Assembly: GCF_000685865.1 (NCBI RefSeq) | Contig: NZ_JMKS01000003.1 | Coordinates: 930,001-994,000 of the forward strand | Direction of reading: 5' to 3' | Source: Exiguobacterium antarcticum DSM 14480 | Lineage (GTDB): Bacteria > Bacillota > Bacilli > Exiguobacteriales > Exiguobacteriaceae | DNA: 64,000 nt | In this document: positions 1,234-58,691 of the stretch, in pieces | Layout of the letters: the number at the start of each line of letters is the position of its first letter | Position numbering within the stretch: position 1 is the first letter of the stretch | The notes under the pieces: model-generated | Database searches by the model: none | Seen by the model: the letters and a program-made list of their open reading frames with translations, nothing else | What the model was told of the DNA's origin: nothing | Made by a program: the position numbers and the translations under genes

Positions 1234-1977
1234 TCACCCGAGTTTATCCAACTCCAGAATAGTGACCGTTTTACCGGCGTATAAGGTTCGTCCAGTATAA
1301 CGGGACAGTTTCGCGAACTCAAATAATGTATCCGGCTCATACAGATGCTCGACCATGTAGCTGACCTTCTCATCCTCTCCTGATTTCAGATACAGATTAA
1401 AGATCAGTCGATTGTTGTCGACCTTCTGACCATAAAATAACGTACAATCTTGAATTCGTCGTGAAGCGATCGGTTGGACATGTTGTTTCAAATAGTTTGC
1501 ATTATGGATGTTGACGAGCAATTGTCCCTCTGTCGTCAACAGCTGTCGTACGTTTCGGAAAAACAATAACAGTTCTCCCCGTGAATATCGTGCAATCGTC
1601 GTTCCGGGTAAAACGATTTTATCAAAGGCACCGCTTCCCATCACATCAATCAGCTCATTACTCAGTCCATAGACGCGATTCAAATAACGAGAAGAAATTC
1701 CGGCGATCCGGTTCAGTTCCGGTTCGACGAGATAAAGATCGTACCCTTCCTGACATAAGGTATTAAATAAATTCGGTGAAAAGGCCCCATATAACAGAAC
1801 GCGATCTTCTTTTTGTAAGTAACGACGATACAACATCAATTCATCGATTTCCGGTAACGCGGATGTTTCTTGGTAAAGGGCGACGAACCGATCGTCAGCA
1901 AACAGATTATTGAGGACTTGAACACGTGAATAGCTCCCTTTTCGTGAAAACGGGCCAAATAATAATGGGTTATCCAT
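1234..1977 (-). CDS. Rossmann-fold, methyltransferase-like protein in the peptide operon
   Basis: 247 residues. The middle of the protein resembles a class I SAM-dependent methyltransferase. A motif I-like strand-loop (VLLYGAFSPN, residues about 79-88) is followed by an acidic strand end (LYLVEPE). Later comes a post-motif segment of the type LLTTEGQLLVNIHN, where such proteins have a strand after 'gG.l.i'. The usual GxGxG is not conserved, so cofactor binding is uncertain. The ATG overlaps the end of the 404-residue gene by 8 bases, with AAGGAG upstream, which indicates translational coupling. It is the last gene of a three-gene unit whose first gene encodes a 48-residue peptide; modification of that peptide is an inference from context only. 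Confidence 0.55.
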   Translation of the reverse strand: MDNPLLFGPFSRKGSYSRVQVLNNLFADDRFVALYQETSALPEIDELMLYRRYLQKEDRVLLYGAFSPNLFNTLCQEGYDLYLVEPELNRIAGISSRYLNRVYGLSNELIDVMGSGAFDKIVLPGTTIARYSRGELLLFFRNVRQLLTTEGQLLVNIHNANYLKQHVQPIASRRIQDCTLFYGQKVDNNRLIFNLYLKSGEDEKVSYMVEHLYEPDTLFEFAKLSRYTGRTLYAGKTVTILELDKLG

Positions 1978-3181
1978 GATAAATCAACTCCTTGTACGTC
2001 TGAATCGCTGCTTCATAGTCCGCACCGAGCCTTTCCGGCAACACATCAAACCGTTCCTTCTGATCTGCCTCGAGTATCGCGAGGAACACCTCATCCGTCT
2101 CAAACAACTGATTCGTCATCAATTCGAAGGCAAAACACCCTTCTGAATTTTGAATGCCGATCATGGACAATGGTCCAATCTTTCCATCCGTCCGGGGTAA
2201 CTCGAGTACGCTGTACGGTGTCACGAACTGACTTGTCCCCTGAAAGGCCGAGGCAAGCTGAAACAGGACAGGATACAGACTGATTTCCGGGTTTGGAGCC
2301 AAGGGATCCATTTGCATCTGTTGCCGTTCGCGTAACTGACAGACGTTTAAATCAAACGTCGAACTGAGTGAGATCCGTTTTCCGTAATCCGCGAATATCC
2401 CGTCACTACAGATGAATAAACGGTGCGAGACGGACATTCCGGCAAGTGTCGCATAATCCAGGATGCCAATATGGTGCGCGGGATTAGACACGACACTCGT
2501 CTCGTGCCACTGCTCCATCGTAGCTTGCAACGCCTCCCGTTCAAAAGTCGCCAAGCGCTCTTTGATAGGAAACGGCAACGTATCCGAAAACGCGAGCAGG
2601 ACCGGTGTCCGGCTCATCAGTTCGATGACCGGCAAGTCATGTCGGGTCGACTGATCGATATACAACAAACTGTTGATCGTCATTTGATCAAACAAGGAAG
2701 GTTCAATCGAATCCAGCAATGCGGTGTGTTCGACATACACGTGGCGTAACGGTTGTGGCTGACGAGTTGCTGTATCCGGATAGACTCCTGTGAACAAGGA
2801 CATCATCGCGTCCTGCAGTTCGATCGGTTGTTCGTGAATCATGGATACATCCAGTGGGACCTGTCGTCCTTCTAAGAAATACGGATCACCAAACAAGACA
2901 TCGCCTCGTTCATTCACCAAATGGAACTGGACATGTAACATACGTTGTTGTAAATAGGCGACGAGTCGTAAGGTCCGTTCACCCGGTCCACGCAAGATGA
3001 ACAGATAATGTTCAAACTCTTGAAAGTCCATATAGTCGAGTAAATCCAAAAAGGTATGCTGATCGTAATCATAACGATCCATTGAAAAACGGTGTTGCTC
3101 ACAAAATTGAACAAGCGCATCAGTAGGATCAAGTTGGTGGAGCCAGCCTTCACTTTCAGAAAGAATCGTTAGTCCGATCAT
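1970..3181 (-). CDS. Unknown 404-residue protein, central gene of the peptide operon
   Basis: I do not recognise the family. The first 110 residues look like an alpha/beta flavodoxin or B12-binding-like domain (alternating hydrophobic strands, DRYDYDQ), and the rest is mixed alpha/beta. No CxxxCxxC radical-SAM motif, ATP-grasp signature, signal peptide or membrane segment is visible. I chose the ATG at 3181 because AAAGGAG is 7 bases upstream; an in-frame ATG at 3187 is almost on top of the RBS. The gene lies 82 bases after the 48-residue peptide gene and overlaps the methyltransferase-like gene. The tight pairing of the two larger genes suggests they work together, possibly as peptide maturation proteins. 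That is inference. Confidence 0.55.
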   Translation of the reverse strand: MIGLTILSESEGWLHQLDPTDALVQFCEQHRFSMDRYDYDQHTFLDLLDYMDFQEFEHYLFILRGPGERTLRLVAYLQQRMLHVQFHLVNERGDVLFGDPYFLEGRQVPLDVSMIHEQPIELQDAMMSLFTGVYPDTATRQPQPLRHVYVEHTALLDSIEPSLFDQMTINSLLYIDQSTRHDLPVIELMSRTPVLLAFSDTLPFPIKERLATFEREALQATMEQWHETSVVSNPAHHIGILDYATLAGMSVSHRLFICSDGIFADYGKRISLSSTFDLNVCQLRERQQMQMDPLAPNPEISLYPVLFQLASAFQGTSQFVTPYSVLELPRTDGKIGPLSMIGIQNSEGCFAFELMTNQLFETDEVFLAILEADQKERFDVLPERLGADYEAAIQTYKELIYHG

Positions 3182-3263
3182 GTCCATGCTCCTTTCAGTA
3201 GATGATTTTAAAAAAGGGCTTCAGACCTTTGACGGAATGAAGCCACGTCGTCGAGAGACGTTA

Positions 3264-3410
3264 TTATGAAGTTTTGAGTTCGCGTTTCGCCGGTGGTTTG
3301 ATCCGGTCCATTTCTCGACTAGTTAAGGGTGCGACCGAGACGTTAGCAGCATTTAAGCACCAGCCGTAAGACGTCATCGTCCGGCGCGATTCTTTAAAGG
3401 TGAAGTTCAT
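3264..3410 (-). CDS. 48-residue peptide, candidate precursor of a modified peptide
   Basis: A short open frame with AAAGGGG 8 bases before the ATG. It starts MNFTFKESRR, has a central segment TSYGWCLNAANVSVAPL, and ends in a Lys/Arg/Pro-rich tail (KPPAKRELKTS). It has one Cys, one Trp and one Tyr close together and no hydrophobic signal sequence, so it is not a typical class II bacteriocin. Position first in an operon with two unrecognised enzyme-like genes, and divergent from a peptide-sensing regulator, is the usual layout for a ribosomally made, modified peptide (RiPP). An alternative is a leader peptide or a small regulatory protein. Confidence 0.5.
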   Translation of the reverse strand: MNFTFKESRRTMTSYGWCLNAANVSVAPLTSREMDRIKPPAKRELKTS

Positions 3411-3476: not shown

Positions 3477-3506
3477 TTGGTATCGGACACCTTTCCCTTT
3501 TATAAT
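3477..3506 (+). promoter_or_regulatory. Promoter of the HTH-TPR regulator gene
   Basis: TTGGTA at 3477-3482 and TATAAT at 3501-3506 are separated by 18 bases, 50 bases before the ATG at 3557. A short inverted motif CGAA-TT-TTCG lies upstream in the region shared with the divergent peptide operon. Confidence 0.5.
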
Positions 3507-3556: not shown

Positions 3557-4444
3557 ATGGATCAATTCACGTCACCGCAGATTGGTCTTGCCCTTCGCCG
3601 CCTTCGGAAGAAACACAATCTGACTCAGAAGGATTTGGCGAACGGAATTTGCAGCCAAGCGGAAATCAGTAAGATTGAAAGTGGAACACATTCTCCGACC
3701 GTTGATTTGCTCTATGCACTTTCAGTAAGACTACAAGTTCCATTAACAACGTTTTTAAATCAGTCTAATACACTTGAAACAATCAAAATTATTGACGACG
3801 AATTATTAACTAAATTTCAAAATAAAAAATATGAAGAAATTTTTCGATTATCAAAAAAAAATATAGAGCATCTGGATAAAAGCGAAGAATTGAGATCTTT
3901 GTATTCTTTTTATTTACACTTAAGTGCATTTAGATTACGTAAAATTGATTATCGAACTTGTATTATTCAATTACAACGTTTATCAGATAACTATATTAAG
4001 ATCTATTATTCACCTAAAATGTTATTTCGTATAAAATCTTCAATTGCTACGATTTACCAAGAAAACAGTAATTTTTTATACAGTTTAAAAACATATGAAG
4101 AATTACTTTCGTTTAGCTTTGACAGCGAAGAACTGTTAGTAGAGAAAATTCGATTGCTATATAACATTTCAAAGATACTAGTTTCTTTAGCTAAATATGA
4201 GAGGGCTCTCAATTATGTTAAAGAAGGAATATATTTAAGTTTAAGATTTAAGGATATGTCTTTGTTAGGCCAACTTTTTTATCAAAAAGGGTACATTTTA
4301 GAAATGTCAGGTTCAACCTTATATGATATTAATGATGCCTACCAGAAAGCTTATACACTATTCGATATCTTAGGAATGGAAGAATATAAGCAGATTCTCA
4401 TACAAAATAATAAAGTAACAATGCCTTATCATAGTAAGGAGTAA
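3557..4444 (+). CDS. HTH-TPR transcriptional regulator, PlcR/NprR-like (RRNPP type)
   Basis: 295 residues. Residues about 8-65 form an XRE HTH (LRKKHNLTQKDLANGICSQAE, then KIESGTHSPTVDLLYAL). The remaining ~225 residues are helical repeats with the spacing of TPR units, as in PlcR, which has a similar length. Known members bind short imported peptides through the TPR domain and switch DNA binding. It is divergent from the 48-residue peptide operon and convergent with the repeat-peptide gene 31 bases downstream. The first ~220 bases have the GC-balanced codon use of the surrounding genome, but from about 3770 the codons become strongly AT-rich, suggesting the sensor half was replaced by recombination. 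The class call is firm; the cognate peptide is inferred. Confidence 0.85.
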   Translation: MDQFTSPQIGLALRRLRKKHNLTQKDLANGICSQAEISKIESGTHSPTVDLLYALSVRLQVPLTTFLNQSNTLETIKIIDDELLTKFQNKKYEEIFRLSKKNIEHLDKSEELRSLYSFYLHLSAFRLRKIDYRTCIIQLQRLSDNYIKIYYSPKMLFRIKSSIATIYQENSNFLYSLKTYEELLSFSFDSEELLVEKIRLLYNISKILVSLAKYERALNYVKEGIYLSLRFKDMSLLGQLFYQKGYILEMSGSTLYDINDAYQKAYTLFDILGMEEYKQILIQNNKVTMPYHSKE

Positions 4445-4474
4445 TTTTTTTATTCTCTATTCTCCCACAGAGTA

Positions 4475-4909
4475 TCATCCTAATTTTTTTATCGAATGCT
4501 TTGGTGGAAGAAGGTCTTTTGCTATCTGCTTCACAGCGTGTTCTGGTGGGAGAAGATCTTTCGCTACCTGCTTCACGGCATGTTCTGGCGGGAGAAGGTC
4601 TTTCGCTACCTGCTTCACGGCATGTTCTGGTGGGAGAAGGTCTTTCGCTACCTGCTTCACGGCATGTTCTGGTGGGAGAAGATCTTTCGCTACCTGCTTC
4701 ACGGCATGTTCTGGTGGGAGAAGATCTTTCGCTACCTGCTTCACGGCATGTTCTGGTGGGAGAAGATCTTTCGCTACCTGCTTCACGGCATGTTCTGGTG
4801 GGAGAAGGTCTTTCCCAAACGATGAGACATTTGAAGTATTTGCAATTCCTAAACCTAACATAAGGAATGTACTTCCACTTAATAAAATTAATTTCTTTTT
4901 TAAGTTCAT
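4475..4909 (-). CDS. Exported peptide precursor with eight 14-residue repeats, candidate multi-copy pheromone
   Basis: 144 residues. It has a short basic N-terminus (MNLKKK), a hydrophobic core (LILLSGSTFLMLGLGIA) and a polar stretch, then eight back-to-back copies of KDLLPPEHAVKQVA. Copies 1-6 are identical, copy 7 has I for V, and copy 8 is diverged (KDLLPPKHSIKKLG). The protein ends exactly with the last copy. I chose ATG at 4909 because AGGAGG (4919-4924) is 9 bases upstream; the in-frame TTG at 4918 touches it. Signal plus tandem peptide units, next to an HTH-TPR peptide-sensor gene, fits a precursor releasing many copies of one signalling peptide. A repetitive surface or antimicrobial peptide is possible. 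Confidence 0.7.
   Translation of the reverse strand: MNLKKKLILLSGSTFLMLGLGIANTSNVSSFGKDLLPPEHAVKQVAKDLLPPEHAVKQVAKDLLPPEHAVKQVAKDLLPPEHAVKQVAKDLLPPEHAVKQVAKDLLPPEHAVKQVAKDLLPPEHAVKQIAKDLLPPKHSIKKLG
4478..4813. repeat. Eight tandem 42-bp repeats inside the peptide-precursor gene
   Basis: The array is contiguous with no spacers and in phase with the 14-residue protein unit. Copies differ at only a few bases except the last one (lowest coordinates). Because 42 is divisible by three, other frames also stay open through the array; those frames are not genes. Confidence 0.95.
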
Positions 4910-4977
4910 AATTAACAACCTCCTAATTTTTTTGTCTAGCTTTGTAACAACATCATATATCCTTAGACCCCCTTCGG

Positions 4978-5060
4978 ATATTCGAATACGAATATTTCAC
5001 TCATTTTGCACATTATTTACACTTAATGTATCTTTCGACCTAGGTCTTAGGTCACTAAAC
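4978..5060. promoter_or_regulatory. Upstream region of the repeat-peptide gene with inverted repeats
   Basis: Two dyads are visible: ATATTCG-AATA-CGAATAT near 4978-4996, and GACCTA-ggtct-TAGGTC near 5039-5055. The first shares the core ACGAAT-TTCG-like sequence with the region upstream of the 48-residue peptide operon, so it may be the operator of the HTH-TPR regulator. No strong -35/-10 pair stands out. The rest of 4925-5160 holds no gene I can support. Confidence 0.3.
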
Positions 5061-15901: not shown

Positions 15902-17434
15902 TTAATTCAATTTTTTCAACGGTTTGACAGCCGGTCCTTCTAAGACATTCCCTTCATAATCAAAACGCGAGCCGTGACACGGACAATCCCACGACCGTTC
16001 CCCGTTGTTCCACTTGACGTCGCACCCCATGTGCGTACAGGTCGTCTTGACGAGATGCAACTCGCCGGAAACATCTCGGTATCCTCCGACTGTCTTTCCG
16101 GCATGCCGGACGAGCCCGCCTTCATCATTGCCGAGATCGTCCGCCGATTGACTGGCGCGGGTCACTTTCCCCTTCAATAACTCAATCGCGACATCGGCAT
16201 TGTTCTTCGCGAACTGTTTCGCATCCTGCTTGTTCAGCTTCGACCGGTTCGGGTCAAACAGTCCTCTAAAGCGGTTCTGCGTCCCTGTCAATAAATCGGA
16301 CAAAAGCAGACCTGCCGCAATTCCGTTCGTCATCCCCCACTTGGCAAATCCGGTCGCGACCAGGATATTCGGATCGTCACTCGTCATCTGTCCGATGTAC
16401 GGCACCTTATCGAGCGAAATCAAATCCTGGGCCGACCAAAACTGGTCGATCTCGGCGACATGAAACTCACTTTCGGCGAAATGCGCCAATGCCTGATAGT
16501 TGGGTTGTGTATTCGTCTGATGACCGGATAGATGATTTTCACCGCCGAACAGGCCAAGCCGTTTCCCGTCAGCCGTCTGCGTATGCCGGAGCGACCGGCT
16601 CGGTTGGTCGGCACTCATGAACATGCCGTCCGGGAAGTCGTCCGGTACCAGTCCAGACACGATATACGAACGATGAACTTCGAGTTTCGAGAAGTAGAGT
16701 CCTTTGATGTCGTTGAACGGGAAATGCGTCGCTACGATGATTTTTTTCGCCTCGATTTGGTGACCGGATTCAAGCAGTACAGTTGGTGTTCGTTTTGACT
16801 CGACGGACATCGCCCGCGTCTGTTCATAGAGCTTCCCACCTTGTTCCGTGAAATAACGGGCGAGACCAAGTAAGTATTTGACGGGATGAAACTGGGCTTG
16901 ATTGCGAATGACGAGGGCCTGTTCGACCGGATACGGTAACTTCCCCCGAACCTCGTCTGTCGCGTCGCCGCCGTTGATCTCAAGCCGACTGTATGCATCC
17001 GCTTCTTTGATCAGCTGCTTGTGTTTTGGCCCACTGGACGCGACGTACAGATACGCATCCTGTTCCTCGAGTTCACAATCTATTGCAAGACGTGTCGTCT
17101 GATCTCGCAGGAAACGAATCGCCTCTTCGTTCGCTTCGTGATAGAGCCGTGCCTTCTCTTCGCCAAACGTCTGGATTAGTTCGTCATAGATCAAACCATG
17201 CTGCGATGAGACTTTGGCTGTCGTATAGCCGGTCGTCCCGCTTGCAATCCGGTCTGCTTCAATCAACGTCACGTCATACCCCCGTTCAATCAGTTGAACG
17301 GCTGTGACGAGTCCGGCGATACCTGCCCCGATGACGACGACATCACTTGTTAGATTTGTTTCGAGTTTCGGATACGTCGAAGCTTCAACCGAAGTACGCC
17401 AGTACGATGTTGGAAATCCGTCAAGTTTCTTCAT
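15902..17434 (-). CDS. FAD-dependent oxidoreductase with C-terminal Rieske [2Fe-2S] domain
   Basis: 510 residues. A DAO-type FAD domain begins with [20 protein letters not shown] and VTLIEAD (residues ~33-60) and includes later segments typical of glycine-oxidase-like proteins (HYxGQ-like [19 protein letters not shown]). The last ~90 residues are a Rieske domain: C466-x-H468 and C484-x-x-H487 bind the cluster, and C471/C486 match the conserved disulfide pair. Comparable proteins occur in Bacillus with unknown substrate. Cytosolic, monocistronic, GGAGG before the ATG. The FAD and cluster binding are well supported; the reaction is not known. Confidence 0.88.
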
Positions 17435-55379: not shown

Positions 55380-56948
55380 TCATTTCAGTAATCGAACCGC
55401 CCGATCAGCATCGAGACGTCCGTACCCGTACGACGTGTCATAGCCTTTTTTTCCGAGGTCTTGCGCGGATTTTTTGAGAATGCTTTCAACTTCTGATGCC
55501 TTGATCGTCGGCTTCAAGCTGTAGAGGACGCTCGCGACACCCGCGACGTGCGGTGCTGCCATCGATGTCCCGCTCCAGAAGGCCGACACCCCGTCACTGA
55601 GGTAACTTGGAATGTCTTGTCCCGGTGCAATCAAATCGAGTCCTTCGCCATAGTTCGAGAAGGCCGACCGTTTGTCGAACCGGTTGGATGACCCAACCGA
55701 GAGCACATACTGTGACCGTGCCGGATAAGACAGCTTGTTCGTCCCTTCATTCCCTGCCGCGACCACAACAAGGACTCCTTGTTTTTTCGCATAGGCGAGA
55801 GCATCTTCAATCGCCCGGGACGAGAACCCGCCTCCGATACTGATATTGATGACTTTGGCTTTCTTCTTCACCGCATGCAGGATTCCTTTGGCGATATTCG
55901 AGTTGGAACCGTAGTTGTCTTCCCCGAGCACTTTGATCGGGATGATCGATGCTTTGGCATTGATGCCGGACATCCCGTACGTATTATTGCTGTTCGCTGC
56001 GATGATCCCCGCAATATGTGAACCATGACCATGATCATCGATGGCGAGCTGACGGCGGTTGACGAAATCATAGCCAAGATCCATCCGGACCCGTCCGGCA
56101 AAATCGGCGTACGTCGGGTTGATCCCGGTATCGATGACAGCGACGAGGACCGTCGATTGTTTTTTCGAAGTAATCCGCTTTTTCATCGCCTCGAAATTGA
56201 TATCGGCTCCTTTGACGCCACCCCGTTGTCCGGTATTGTTCAACGACCACTGATACGATTTGAAGACGTCATTTCCGAGTCCATGCATTTGACTATCGAG
56301 TTCGACATAGGCGACGCCACGTGTTTGTTCGAGTTGACGTTTTGCGGCAAGTGCCTGCATGACCGTCCGGTACGTGAACTTCTCGAGCTTTAGTCCTGCG
56401 TCAATCGTCTCCCGTTTGACGGCATCCGTTTTCTCGGACAACTGTTGTTTTTGACTGCTTGGTCCTGTCATTTTGACGACCAGGCTACTCGATTTTGCTA
56501 CCGTACCCGATTGACCAATCAACTCCCGAAGTGGTTGCAGGCGTTCGAGTTTAAACGGGACGACAAACGATGTGTTTTTCTTTCCTTCAATCTCTATGTA
56601 TTGACGCCCGCTCCAACTGAGTGGGAAGATCAGCGACTGATTCGTGACTTGATCGTACCGTCCGTAGACCAGTTGTTGTTTATAGTTCGTTTGTGAATCA
56701 TAGACCGTGACCGCTTCCGTCACGTCCGCTGCAAATTTGAGGTGAGTGCCGCCCGTCAGGTAGGTTTTTGTATCAAAGTAAAACAAGGCTTTGCCTTTGC
56801 TATCAAACGTACCTTTGATGTAGGCTTTCTTCGTTTCCAAGTCAAGCGATGGTAACTTTTTAGCCCCTGTACCCGCTGCTTCTGTTTGAATCGGTACGGC
56901 TGTTCCCAGTAGACCGAAAACCGTCAAGCCGACTAACCATTTTTGCAT
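55380..56948 (-). CDS. Secreted subtilisin-like serine protease (S8)
   Basis: 522 residues. Signal peptide to ~25. An N-terminal prepeptidase-type beta domain (HLKFAADVTEAVTVYDS, FPLSWSGRQYIEIEG) and a propeptide-like segment (LKLEKFTYRTVMQALAAKRQ) precede the catalytic domain: Asp in VLVAVIDTGINP, His in HGHGSHIAGIIAA, Asn in VVAAGNEG and Ser in SGTSMAAPHVAGVASVL. It ends soon after the catalytic domain with no wall anchor. Gene directly before the BLIP-like paralogues. Confidence 0.93.
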   Translation of the reverse strand: MQKWLVGLTVFGLLGTAVPIQTEAAGTGAKKLPSLDLETKKAYIKGTFDSKGKALFYFDTKTYLTGGTHLKFAADVTEAVTVYDSQTNYKQQLVYGRYDQVTNQSLIFPLSWSGRQYIEIEGKKNTSFVVPFKLERLQPLRELIGQSGTVAKSSSLVVKMTGPSSQKQQLSEKTDAVKRETIDAGLKLEKFTYRTVMQALAAKRQLEQTRGVAYVELDSQMHGLGNDVFKSYQWSLNNTGQRGGVKGADINFEAMKKRITSKKQSTVLVAVIDTGINPTYADFAGRVRMDLGYDFVNRRQLAIDDHGHGSHIAGIIAANSNNTYGMSGINAKASIIPIKVLGEDNYGSNSNIAKGILHAVKKKAKVINISIGGGFSSRAIEDALAYAKKQGVLVVVAAGNEGTNKLSYPARSQYVLSVGSSNRFDKRSAFSNYGEGLDLIAPGQDIPSYLSDGVSAFWSGTSMAAPHVAGVASVLYSLKPTIKASEVESILKKSAQDLGKKGYDTSYGYGRLDADRAVRLLK

Positions 56949-57067
56949 TTCTTCACTCCTCTATCCGCCTTTTGTCCTATGCATCCAGTATAATGGAAAT
57001 TTTTACGATAAACACCTAATTTTTGATTTTTCATCAGAATTTTTTCCGGAAATTTAAAATAAATCGT

Positions 57068-57102
57068 AAAAAAAAGCGAATCCTTTGAAAGAACGGATTC
57101 GC
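57068..57102 (-). terminator. Intrinsic terminator after the frameshifted subtilase
   Basis: GCGAATCC and GGATTCGC pair around an 11-base loop, with a run of eight T on the minus strand. Confidence 0.75.
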
Positions 57103-57108
57103 CTTGCT

Positions 57109-58691
57109 TCATTTAATGTAACTGGCTGCTTTGTCGGCATTAAGACGACCCGATCCATATGTCGTATCGTACCCTTTTGAGCCAAGATCCTTCGCTGATT
57201 TCTTGAGGATACTTTCGACGTCCGCCGCTTTGATCGTCGGTTTCAGACTGTACAAGACACTCGCGACTGCCGCGACATGCGGTGCTGCCATCGAGGTCCC
57301 GCTCGCAAAGGCGAGTTCTCCGTCTGCGAGATAACTTGGAATCGAAACACCCGGTGCGACCAGATCGAGTCCCGTCCCATAGTTCGAGAATGAGGCACGT
57401 TTATCCGTCCTCCCTGTCGCACCGACCGATAGGACATATTTTGAACGCGCCGGGTATGACAATGCCTTTTTCGCCTCGTTACCAGAAGCAGCGACGACTA
57501 AGACATTTTTGCTTTTCGCATAAGCGAGTGCCGATTCGACCGATTTAGATGACGCGTAACCACCAAGACTCAGGTTGATGACCTTCGCGCCTTTTTTGAC
57601 CGCATGATTGATGCCGCTGACAAGATCCGACGTGTAACCGGCTCCGCTTTCGTCCAAGATTTTAATCGGAATGATCGAAGCTTTGGCACTGATTCCTGTC
57701 ATTCCGTACGTATTGTCACTACCGGCGGCGATGATACCTGCGACATGCGAACCATGTCCATTATCATCCCAAGCCGTCTTCGAACGATTGACGAAATCGT
57801 ATCCGAGATCCATCCGGACCTTGCCAGCGAAATCGGCATAACTCGGGTTGACGCCTGAATCAATGACAGCGACGAGCGTCGTCGACTGTTTCTTTTTCGC
57901 AATCCGTTTTTGCATCGCCGTGAAACCGATGTCCGCTCCTTTGAGCCCTTTTTTCTGTCCTGTGTTCACGAGTGACCACTGATGGTGCTTGAACGCATCG
58001 GCGCCAAACGCTTGAACCGGCGTATCGTATTCGACGTACGCCGTCGCACTTGATTGCTCAAGTTTCTGTTTCGCCTGGTTCGCTTCCGCGGCCGATCGAT
58101 ACGTCAATTTTTCGAGTCGTAATTCAGGTGCTAATGACTGAACCGACTTGGCACCGACACTACTTGCACGCATCTTACCGGGTTTTGTTTTGACGATCAG
58201 TGCCGTGCTCGCCTTCGTTGTGACAGACGAACCTTTCGTCAAATCAACCGGTTCGTACCTTGAGACACTGAACGGGACGGAATAAGTATCCCCCGGATAA
58301 CCTTCCAAGATTAAGTACTGACGCCCTTTCCAGCTGAGCGGGAAGTACATCGTCTCATCATTGCGTTGGAAGTACCGGTTGTAGACACGGCCGGCATCGG
58401 CGTCTGCTTACTCGTGAAGACCGTTCCGTAAATATCCCAGTCGAGCTTAAACTCAAGATGTGTCCCGTCTGCGACAAAGTCGGCCGAATCCATATACCAG
58501 ACGTCAAACCCATCTTCGTCAAATCGTCCTTTCATCGGTGCTCCGACGTAACTACCATGGAATGTCGGTACTTCTTTTGCTTGATTGATCTGCGTGCTGC
58601 TAACCGTTTTTTGTTTGTCCGTCGCTTCTCCGTTTAAACCAAATCCTATAAGTAAGCTAACCGTTAGGCTACCTGTGATAATTTTTTTCAT
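57109..58691 (-). pseudogene. Second secreted subtilase gene with a frameshift near 58390
   Basis: The start (ATG 58691, AAGGAG upstream, signal peptide MKKIITGSLTVSLLIGFGLN) and the prepeptidase-like beta domain read to about GTVFTSKQTPMPA. The frame then continues out of phase. The -1 frame picks up GRVYNRYFQRNDETMYFPLS, matching the paralogue's QLVYGRYDQ...FPLSW, and carries a complete catalytic domain (VAVIDSGVNPS, GHGSHVAGIIAA, SGTSMAAPHVAAVASVL). A single lost base in the GCCGGCC run explains it. Either a real inactivating mutation or a sequence error; without the shift it would be about 526 residues, close to the 522 of its neighbour. Confidence 0.82.

Follow-up and report, generated by a model that had tools for sequence, protein, structure and literature searches.

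We conclude that the gene at 4475-4909 of the window (the whole stretch of DNA analyzed, 64,000 nucleotides) very probably encodes the propeptide of an Exiguobacterium quorum-sensing pair of the PlcR/PapR type, in which the propeptide carries multiple copies of the peptide, and the peptide array and the sensor half of the receptor are exchanged together as pherotype cassettes. This reading rests on comparison of sequences across the genus. It agrees with the original prediction of a multi-copy pheromone precursor beside an RRNPP sensor, which is supported by a PapR-type core, by signs of purifying selection on that core and by perfect co-segregation of the core with the TPR half of the receptor.

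Precursor gene and repeat array

The propeptide gene is an open reading frame of 144 codons on the minus strand with exactly the predicted extent (4475-4909), and it adjoins an orthologous receptor gene in 19/19 genus genomes, although contig ends break the precursor in two of them (G007 and G015). An AGGAGG ribosome-binding site, also present in the 18 precursor upstream regions compared, lies at 4919-4924 on the minus strand. The product consists of a 32-residue leader and eight 14-residue units. The leader (MNLKKKLILLSGSTFLMLGLGIANTSNVSSFG; 4814-4909, minus strand) combines a basic start, MNLKKK, with a hydrophobic stretch (15-residue hydropathy mean 1.95), in line with the signal-like N-terminus noted earlier; precursors begin with MNLKKK in 15 and with MNLKNK in 4 of the 19 genus genomes.

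Eight tandem 42-bp units follow on the minus strand (4478-4813), codons 2-8 of each encoding the putative heptapeptide DLLPPEH, and the protein ends on the last unit, as originally described. The count of eight stands, whereas the identity of the copies does not hold throughout: six units are exactly KDLLPPEHAVKQVA, copy 7 carries V13I, and copy 8 (4478-4519, minus strand) is KDLLPPKHSIKKLG, with 6/14 residues altered and DLLPPKH instead of DLLPPEH. Tandem Repeats Finder describes the array with period 42, 7.5 copies, 95% matches and a score of 556, and its self-identity at shift 42 is 0.92, compared with at most 0.37 at any shift from 9 to 79 in 300 dinucleotide shuffles. Against the consensus of copies 1-7, these copies show seven synonymous codon changes and a single non-synonymous one, which marks the reported frame as coding. 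That frame is open across the array in 18/18 genomes; three of the other five frames are open in this genome, and one antisense frame is open in 17/18. Homologue searches did not place the repeat protein in another family, Pfam and NCBIfam giving matches only far below their curated cut-offs and PHROGs none.

Adjacent receptor

The neighboring gene (3557-4444, plus strand) encodes a 295-aa PlcR-type receptor with an HTH at aa 13-65 and an RNPP_C domain at aa 83-285. Receptor and precursor converge on opposite strands, with the stop at 4444 facing 4475 and 30 bp between the genes. Pfam matches are RNPP_C (PF18768, 5.2e-35) and HTH_3 (3e-13), and residues 7-288 match the PlcR entries 2qfc, 3u3w and 4fsc of the Protein Data Bank (5.9e-38). 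An AlphaFold2 model from a 19-row alignment (mean pLDDT 87.2, pTM 0.81) fits best to the PlcR-PapR7-DNA complex 3u3w (Z 22.6, 276 residues, rmsd 8.2), with comparable scores for 2qfc (Z 22.6, rmsd 12.8) and apo PlcR 4fsc (Z 21.4); the best of the non-PlcR chains compared reached Z 17.1, and NprR 5dbk Z 15.0. The large rmsd of the model is probably due to a hinge between the HTH and TPR halves. The neighbor had been called PlcR/NprR-like: an RRNPP sensor does adjoin the precursor and is, by Pfam, Protein Data Bank and model fit, PlcR-type and not NprR-type. The PapR glutamate is said to be held by K89, Q237 and Y275 of PlcR (PMC6568020). Q239 and Y277, the receptor residues equivalent to Q237 and Y275, are invariant in 19/19 genus genomes, whereas the position equivalent to K89 is K in only 2/19 receptors, which counts against full identity with PlcR. 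A candidate sigma-70-like promoter before the receptor (3477-3506, plus strand) is a consensus match of 10/12 in a region where 8 sites were found and 6.5 were expected by shuffling.

On the other side of the receptor, and divergent from it, lies a RiPP-like trio of genes (1234-3410, minus strand). It comprises a 48-aa ORF (3267-3410) that contains SYGWCLNAANVSVAPL, a 405-aa protein (1970-3187) with no real family match, and a 247-aa protein whose match to daptide-type RiPP methyltransferases (NF041820, 4e-4) is weak and below the threshold. By a motif filter, the small ORF precedes the receptor in 10/19 genus genomes.

Distribution and selection on the heptapeptide core

Among 101 genomes, a receptor orthologue is present in 19/19 of the genus (E 3.9e-91 or better) and, at 1e-10, in 0/19 of the sister genus. 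Repeat number in relatives, which the original prediction had proposed to count, ranges from 2 to 9 in the 17 unbroken arrays (2, 3, 3, 3, 4, 5, 5, 5, 5, 6, 6, 6, 7, 7, 8, 8 and 9 copies), each of which thus has at least two, and cores within these arrays are spaced 13-15 residues apart.

Each unit carries a heptapeptide of the form xx[LI]PxE[FYH], which is DLLPPEH in this genome and elsewhere in the genus GHLPPEY, NDLPAEF, NNLPTEF, ERIPLEY, ERLPLEY, NGLPLEY, KGLPLEY, KEIPFEF, KELPFEF, QDLPYEY or TELPYEY. Over 97 copies, P is conserved in 97, E in 96 and a final F, Y or H in 97 (Y 49, F 40, H 8), the sole exception being the E to K change in this genome's last copy; the unit search pattern itself required P, E or K, and F/Y/H, and the unbroken spacing of 13-15 residues indicates that it skipped no unit. 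In PapR, P4, E6 and F7 are the crucial positions (PMC6568020), and known peptides are ADLPFEF, SDMPFEF, NEVPFEF and SDLPFEH of PapR and CSIPYEY of PapRa (PMC3673130). The copies contain the PapR-type motif L/I/M/V-P-x-E-F/H/Y, and the single C-terminal copy of PapR is absent. With 2-9 internal copies separated by spacers, the precursor is therefore PapR-type and not PapR in the strict sense.

Codons were compared between adjacent internal copies in 17 genomes, taking the seven core codons as the core (G013 and G015 were omitted as too short, and the G007 piece was included). The core showed 68 synonymous and 2 non-synonymous differences, and the spacer 39 and 34 (Fisher 2.5e-10; 8.3e-8 without the near-copy G016; 0.002 without G003, G016 and G012, which account for the bulk of the spacer changes). 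The last copy has strayed from the internal consensus more in its spacer than in its core in 16/17 genomes, with one tie (Wilcoxon 4e-4); the spacer seems to be of importance when there is a further copy after it. Together, the codon and last-copy data indicate that the heptapeptide is what selection keeps, and they strongly back purifying selection on it. The peptide is likely to be about DLLPPEH, with or without the preceding K, and not the piece around LLPPEHAV that was guessed earlier.

Tandem units of 42-45 bp are prone to slippage, and the array could be mostly slippage noise, with one or two copies acting as pheromone and copy number having no function. The spread of 2-9 copies would suit this explanation, as would the loss of the core glutamate from the last copy in this genome. 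We consider it unlikely, because every unbroken array has two or more copies and because the ratio of 68 synonymous to 2 non-synonymous differences among internal cores suggests that most copies are selected, although homogenization limits judgement copy by copy. Amplification of the signal output is a plausible role for the array.

Core type and the TPR half of the receptor

Core classes were defined in 19 genomes by the residue at core position 5 (P, A, T, L, F or Y); the classes were chosen post hoc, once the sequences had been inspected. On a tree of the receptor TPR half, in which G003/G016 and G005/G015 have identical sequences, the six classes need 5 changes, the minimum, which 0/200 shuffles matched (shuffled mean 10.4), and each of the five multi-member classes groups in a single clade (bootstrap 96-100). 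With gltB (4476 columns), the tree requires 11 changes for the same classes, with 200/200 shuffles as low, and on a tree of the first 198 bases of the receptor, that is, the HTH DNA, they need 10, with 95/200 shuffles as low, this last tree having one well supported branch of 16.

Two close genome pairs have the TPR half of the receptor replaced between conserved flanks. This genome and G007 have gltB products that are 99% identical, and their DNA, compared in bins with the arrays left out of the alignment (the G007 array is split between contigs), is 97-100% identical before 3657, 81% in 3657-3756, 45-70% up to 4480, which covers the TPR code, and 96.8% from 4889. G018 and G003, with arrays included, are 96.3% identical up to position 1685 of locus L033, 48-65% between (77% in a single border bin), and 95.7% from 2797. 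The two borders lie in conserved sequence, one where the HTH code ends and the other in the precursor leader. An approximate exchangeable pherotype cassette can thus be drawn at 3740-4889, roughly between codon 62 of the receptor and codon 7 of the precursor, on the basis of the identity borders against G007; G018 and G003 give a similar picture.

Whole repeats, not cores alone, move with the TPR half, and co-segregation alone therefore does not separate core from spacer. The active peptide might on this ground be the spacer (SVKxxVA) or the whole 14-mer instead of the heptapeptide, and SVK is common in spacers. This is improbable, however, since 34 of the 36 non-synonymous differences that separate neighboring copies fall in the spacer, which also diverges more than the core in nearly all last copies, and since the likeness to PapR is confined to the core.

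A palindrome upstream of two genes

The palindrome TATTCGTATTCGAATA (read on the minus strand) at 4979-4994, a putative receptor operator, lies 69 bp before the precursor ATG, and it stands before the precursor in 19/19 genus genomes (18 upstream regions and G015). The pattern TATTCGNNNNCGAATA (TATTCGN4CGAATA) was found in all 19, twice in 17 genomes and three times in G010 and G017, and its reversed-pattern control in 0/19. Within the sister genus, 2/19 genomes have one palindrome site and 2/19 one control site. The second site lies 77-82 bp before a gene for a 265-aa protein in 19/19 genomes, the sequence having been read for 14. The exact palindrome stands genus-wide before only two genes. 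From its position and co-occurrence, we infer that the receptor binds TATTCGN4CGAATA. The classical PlcR box TATGNANNNNTNCATA (TATGNAN4TNCATA; PMC3519770) does not precede the propeptide gene, and TATTCGNNNNCGAATA, which has the same 6-4-6 layout, stands there. The third sites were taken as chance from reading of the sequence, that of G010 apparently being close to where a coding stretch ends and that of G017 falling within a 172-aa ORF, at its 5' end. Looser matches were not enriched, whether with one mismatch in this genome (6 sites versus 4 for the reversed control) or with two in the 64-kb window (2 versus 5.5 expected), and the regulon cannot be widened in that way.

The 265-aa gene, at 16456-17253 of locus L085, is present in the 19 genus genomes and in 0/82 others, with a mean column identity of 89% (13 rows). 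Its product matched no family in NCBIfam or PHROGs, nor itself in Pfam; DUF317, at 0.08 at best and in 2/13 orthologues, was rejected. A search for solved relatives found none, the best match being a polyhedrin at 0.91.

PlcR-like receptors elsewhere

A scan of named genomes with the receptor alignment gave 18 loci, all of Exiguobacterium, nine of which are the orthologues at 54-64% identity. Paralogous PlcR-like receptors occur head to tail; this genome has two of them and G001 as many as six, with gaps of about 60-140 bp between the matches (G000:C4:3842-5601, locus L085; G001:C1:1868908-1874357, loci L086/L087; and others). A search of eight such loci from seven genomes revealed no credible PapR-like small ORF close to the paralogues, the one hit, at L138, being rejected as antisense to a receptor and without a signal-like start. 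These paralogues are possibly eavesdropping receptors.

In other genera, 24 of 30 loci (the six of Exiguobacterium being left out) and nine further loci were scanned. Single-copy peptides with the endings NTELPFEN, FDLPFIN and DVDLPPCH, a two-copy peptide (AGTLPDIY) and a 12-copy peptide (DLPSQH) were found beside PlcR-like receptors. The scan undercounts: it picked up neither the two-copy peptide of L169 nor the single-copy ones of L159, L161 and L168. When read by eye, 5/6 loci had a PapR-like or repeated peptide beside the receptor, L160 having no PapR-like ORF there; repeats in L012 and L057 were unlike the core and were dropped. The peptides in other genera suggest that the multi-copy form arose, or was kept, more than once.

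Secreted structural and antimicrobial tandem-repeat proteins exist, and the RiPP-like trio lies close by, but it is very improbable that the repeat protein is such a product, controlled by the receptor without being its ligand, in view of its PapR-type core, the match of core class to TPR clade, the lack of any Pfam or NCBIfam match above cut-off and of any PHROGs match, and the single-copy PapR-like peptides adjoining PlcR-like receptors in other genera.

The 12-copy propeptide (L179, 2179-2763; genome G128, from another family) has 195 aa and a DLPSQH-type core in a mostly 14-residue period. Like the Exiguobacterium precursor, it has a 14-residue period, a signal-like leader and an adjacent RNPP_C receptor (9.3e-21). 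It differs in its same-strand gene order, in its spacer, and in the replacement of the core glutamate by Q (K in one copy).

Comparison with known systems

Most work on PlcR/PapR has concerned the Bacillus cereus group. The Exiguobacterium pair resembles PlcR-PapR of that group in its receptor, which is HTH plus TPR by sequence and fold, in the adjacent propeptide gene, in the existence of several pherotypes, and in a heptapeptide (there xx[LMV]PFE[FH]) and a 6-4-6 palindromic operator (PMC3519770). It differs in that several internal peptide copies with spacers take the place of the one heptapeptide at the C-terminus, the genes converge, the operator half-site is TATTCG and not TATGNA, and core position 5 varies (P, A, T, L, F or Y). 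The internal, non-C-terminal heptapeptide is shared with PlcRa-PapRa of B. cereus (PMC3519770), whose CSIPYEY is close to TELPYEY and QDLPYEY of G002 and G010. As differences, the parts of that article on PlcRa mention no repeats, and its authors found no palindrome at PlcRa targets.

Multi-copy propeptides of RRNPPA systems are in print (PMC9765709; PMC11343458), and the Exiguobacterium precursor therefore belongs to a known kind and is not a first. Repeated mature peptides, with up to six identical copies, have been described in AimR, NprR, PlcR and Rap propeptides, including 3/15 large PlcR propeptides, and 'chattering' and an unsolved problem of two-sided cutting have been suggested for them (PMC9765709). 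For Phr, maturation of two-copy propeptides has been shown and up to eight copies have been reported (PMC11343458). As in these systems (Phr of phi105 and phi3T; AimR, NprR, PlcR and Rap), each propeptide here holds several presumed mature pheromones. The published examples were sought only among atypically large propeptides, whereas the arrays described here occur in every genus genome examined and combine a spacer of near-constant length with a PapR-type core.

With respect to exchange, rap-phr alleles were reported to be acquired horizontally, no recombination between Rap homologues being found (PMC5199041), and genetically transferable pherotypes have been reported in Streptococcus suis (PMC4072589). 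The literature searched on quorum sensing and peptide pheromones in Exiguobacterium yielded no description of the system, and that on genus-wide PlcR-type arrays none with intragenic cassette exchange. The word 'Exiguobacterium' does not occur in the main texts of PMC9765709, PMC10075063, PMC11343458 and PMC12700828, although supplementary tables of the first two may list the pair; the parts of PMC3171730 concerning Exiguobacterium and PlcR treat the two apart.

The present system bears on the question of how peptide languages of bacteria diverge and spread, and its interest lies mainly in the modular pherotype cassette. The genus has six or more peptide classes and sharply bordered cassettes, and its predicted regulon is very small; it offers a clean system for the study of pherotype switching, and it is equally suited to direct study of multi-copy propeptide use and of the two-sided cutting of internal pheromones.

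Proposed circuit

In the proposed mechanism, the propeptide would be exported by Sec and cut by signal peptidase, after which secreted proteases would cut on both sides of each core, so that one propeptide could yield as many as seven or eight peptides of about DLLPPEH. An oligopeptide permease would re-import the peptide, which would bind in the TPR groove of the receptor, which would then activate the TATTCGN4CGAATA promoters of the precursor, in positive feedback, and of the genus-specific 265-aa gene. The TPR half and the array would be exchanged together between species by recombination in conserved flanks, with HTH code on one side and leader and promoter on the other; the 'language' would change while operator and regulon were kept. 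On balance, we lean towards the broader view of a conserved genus-wide circuit with a replaceable language module, TPR half plus array, in which pherotypes are swapped by such recombination and array length (2-9 copies) would serve as a second, slippage-tuned dial of signal dose.

This genome contains six SBP_bac_5 (oligopeptide-binding) and five subtilase genes. Two neighboring subtilase genes lie within the window at 55419-57882 and are candidates for extracellular processing.
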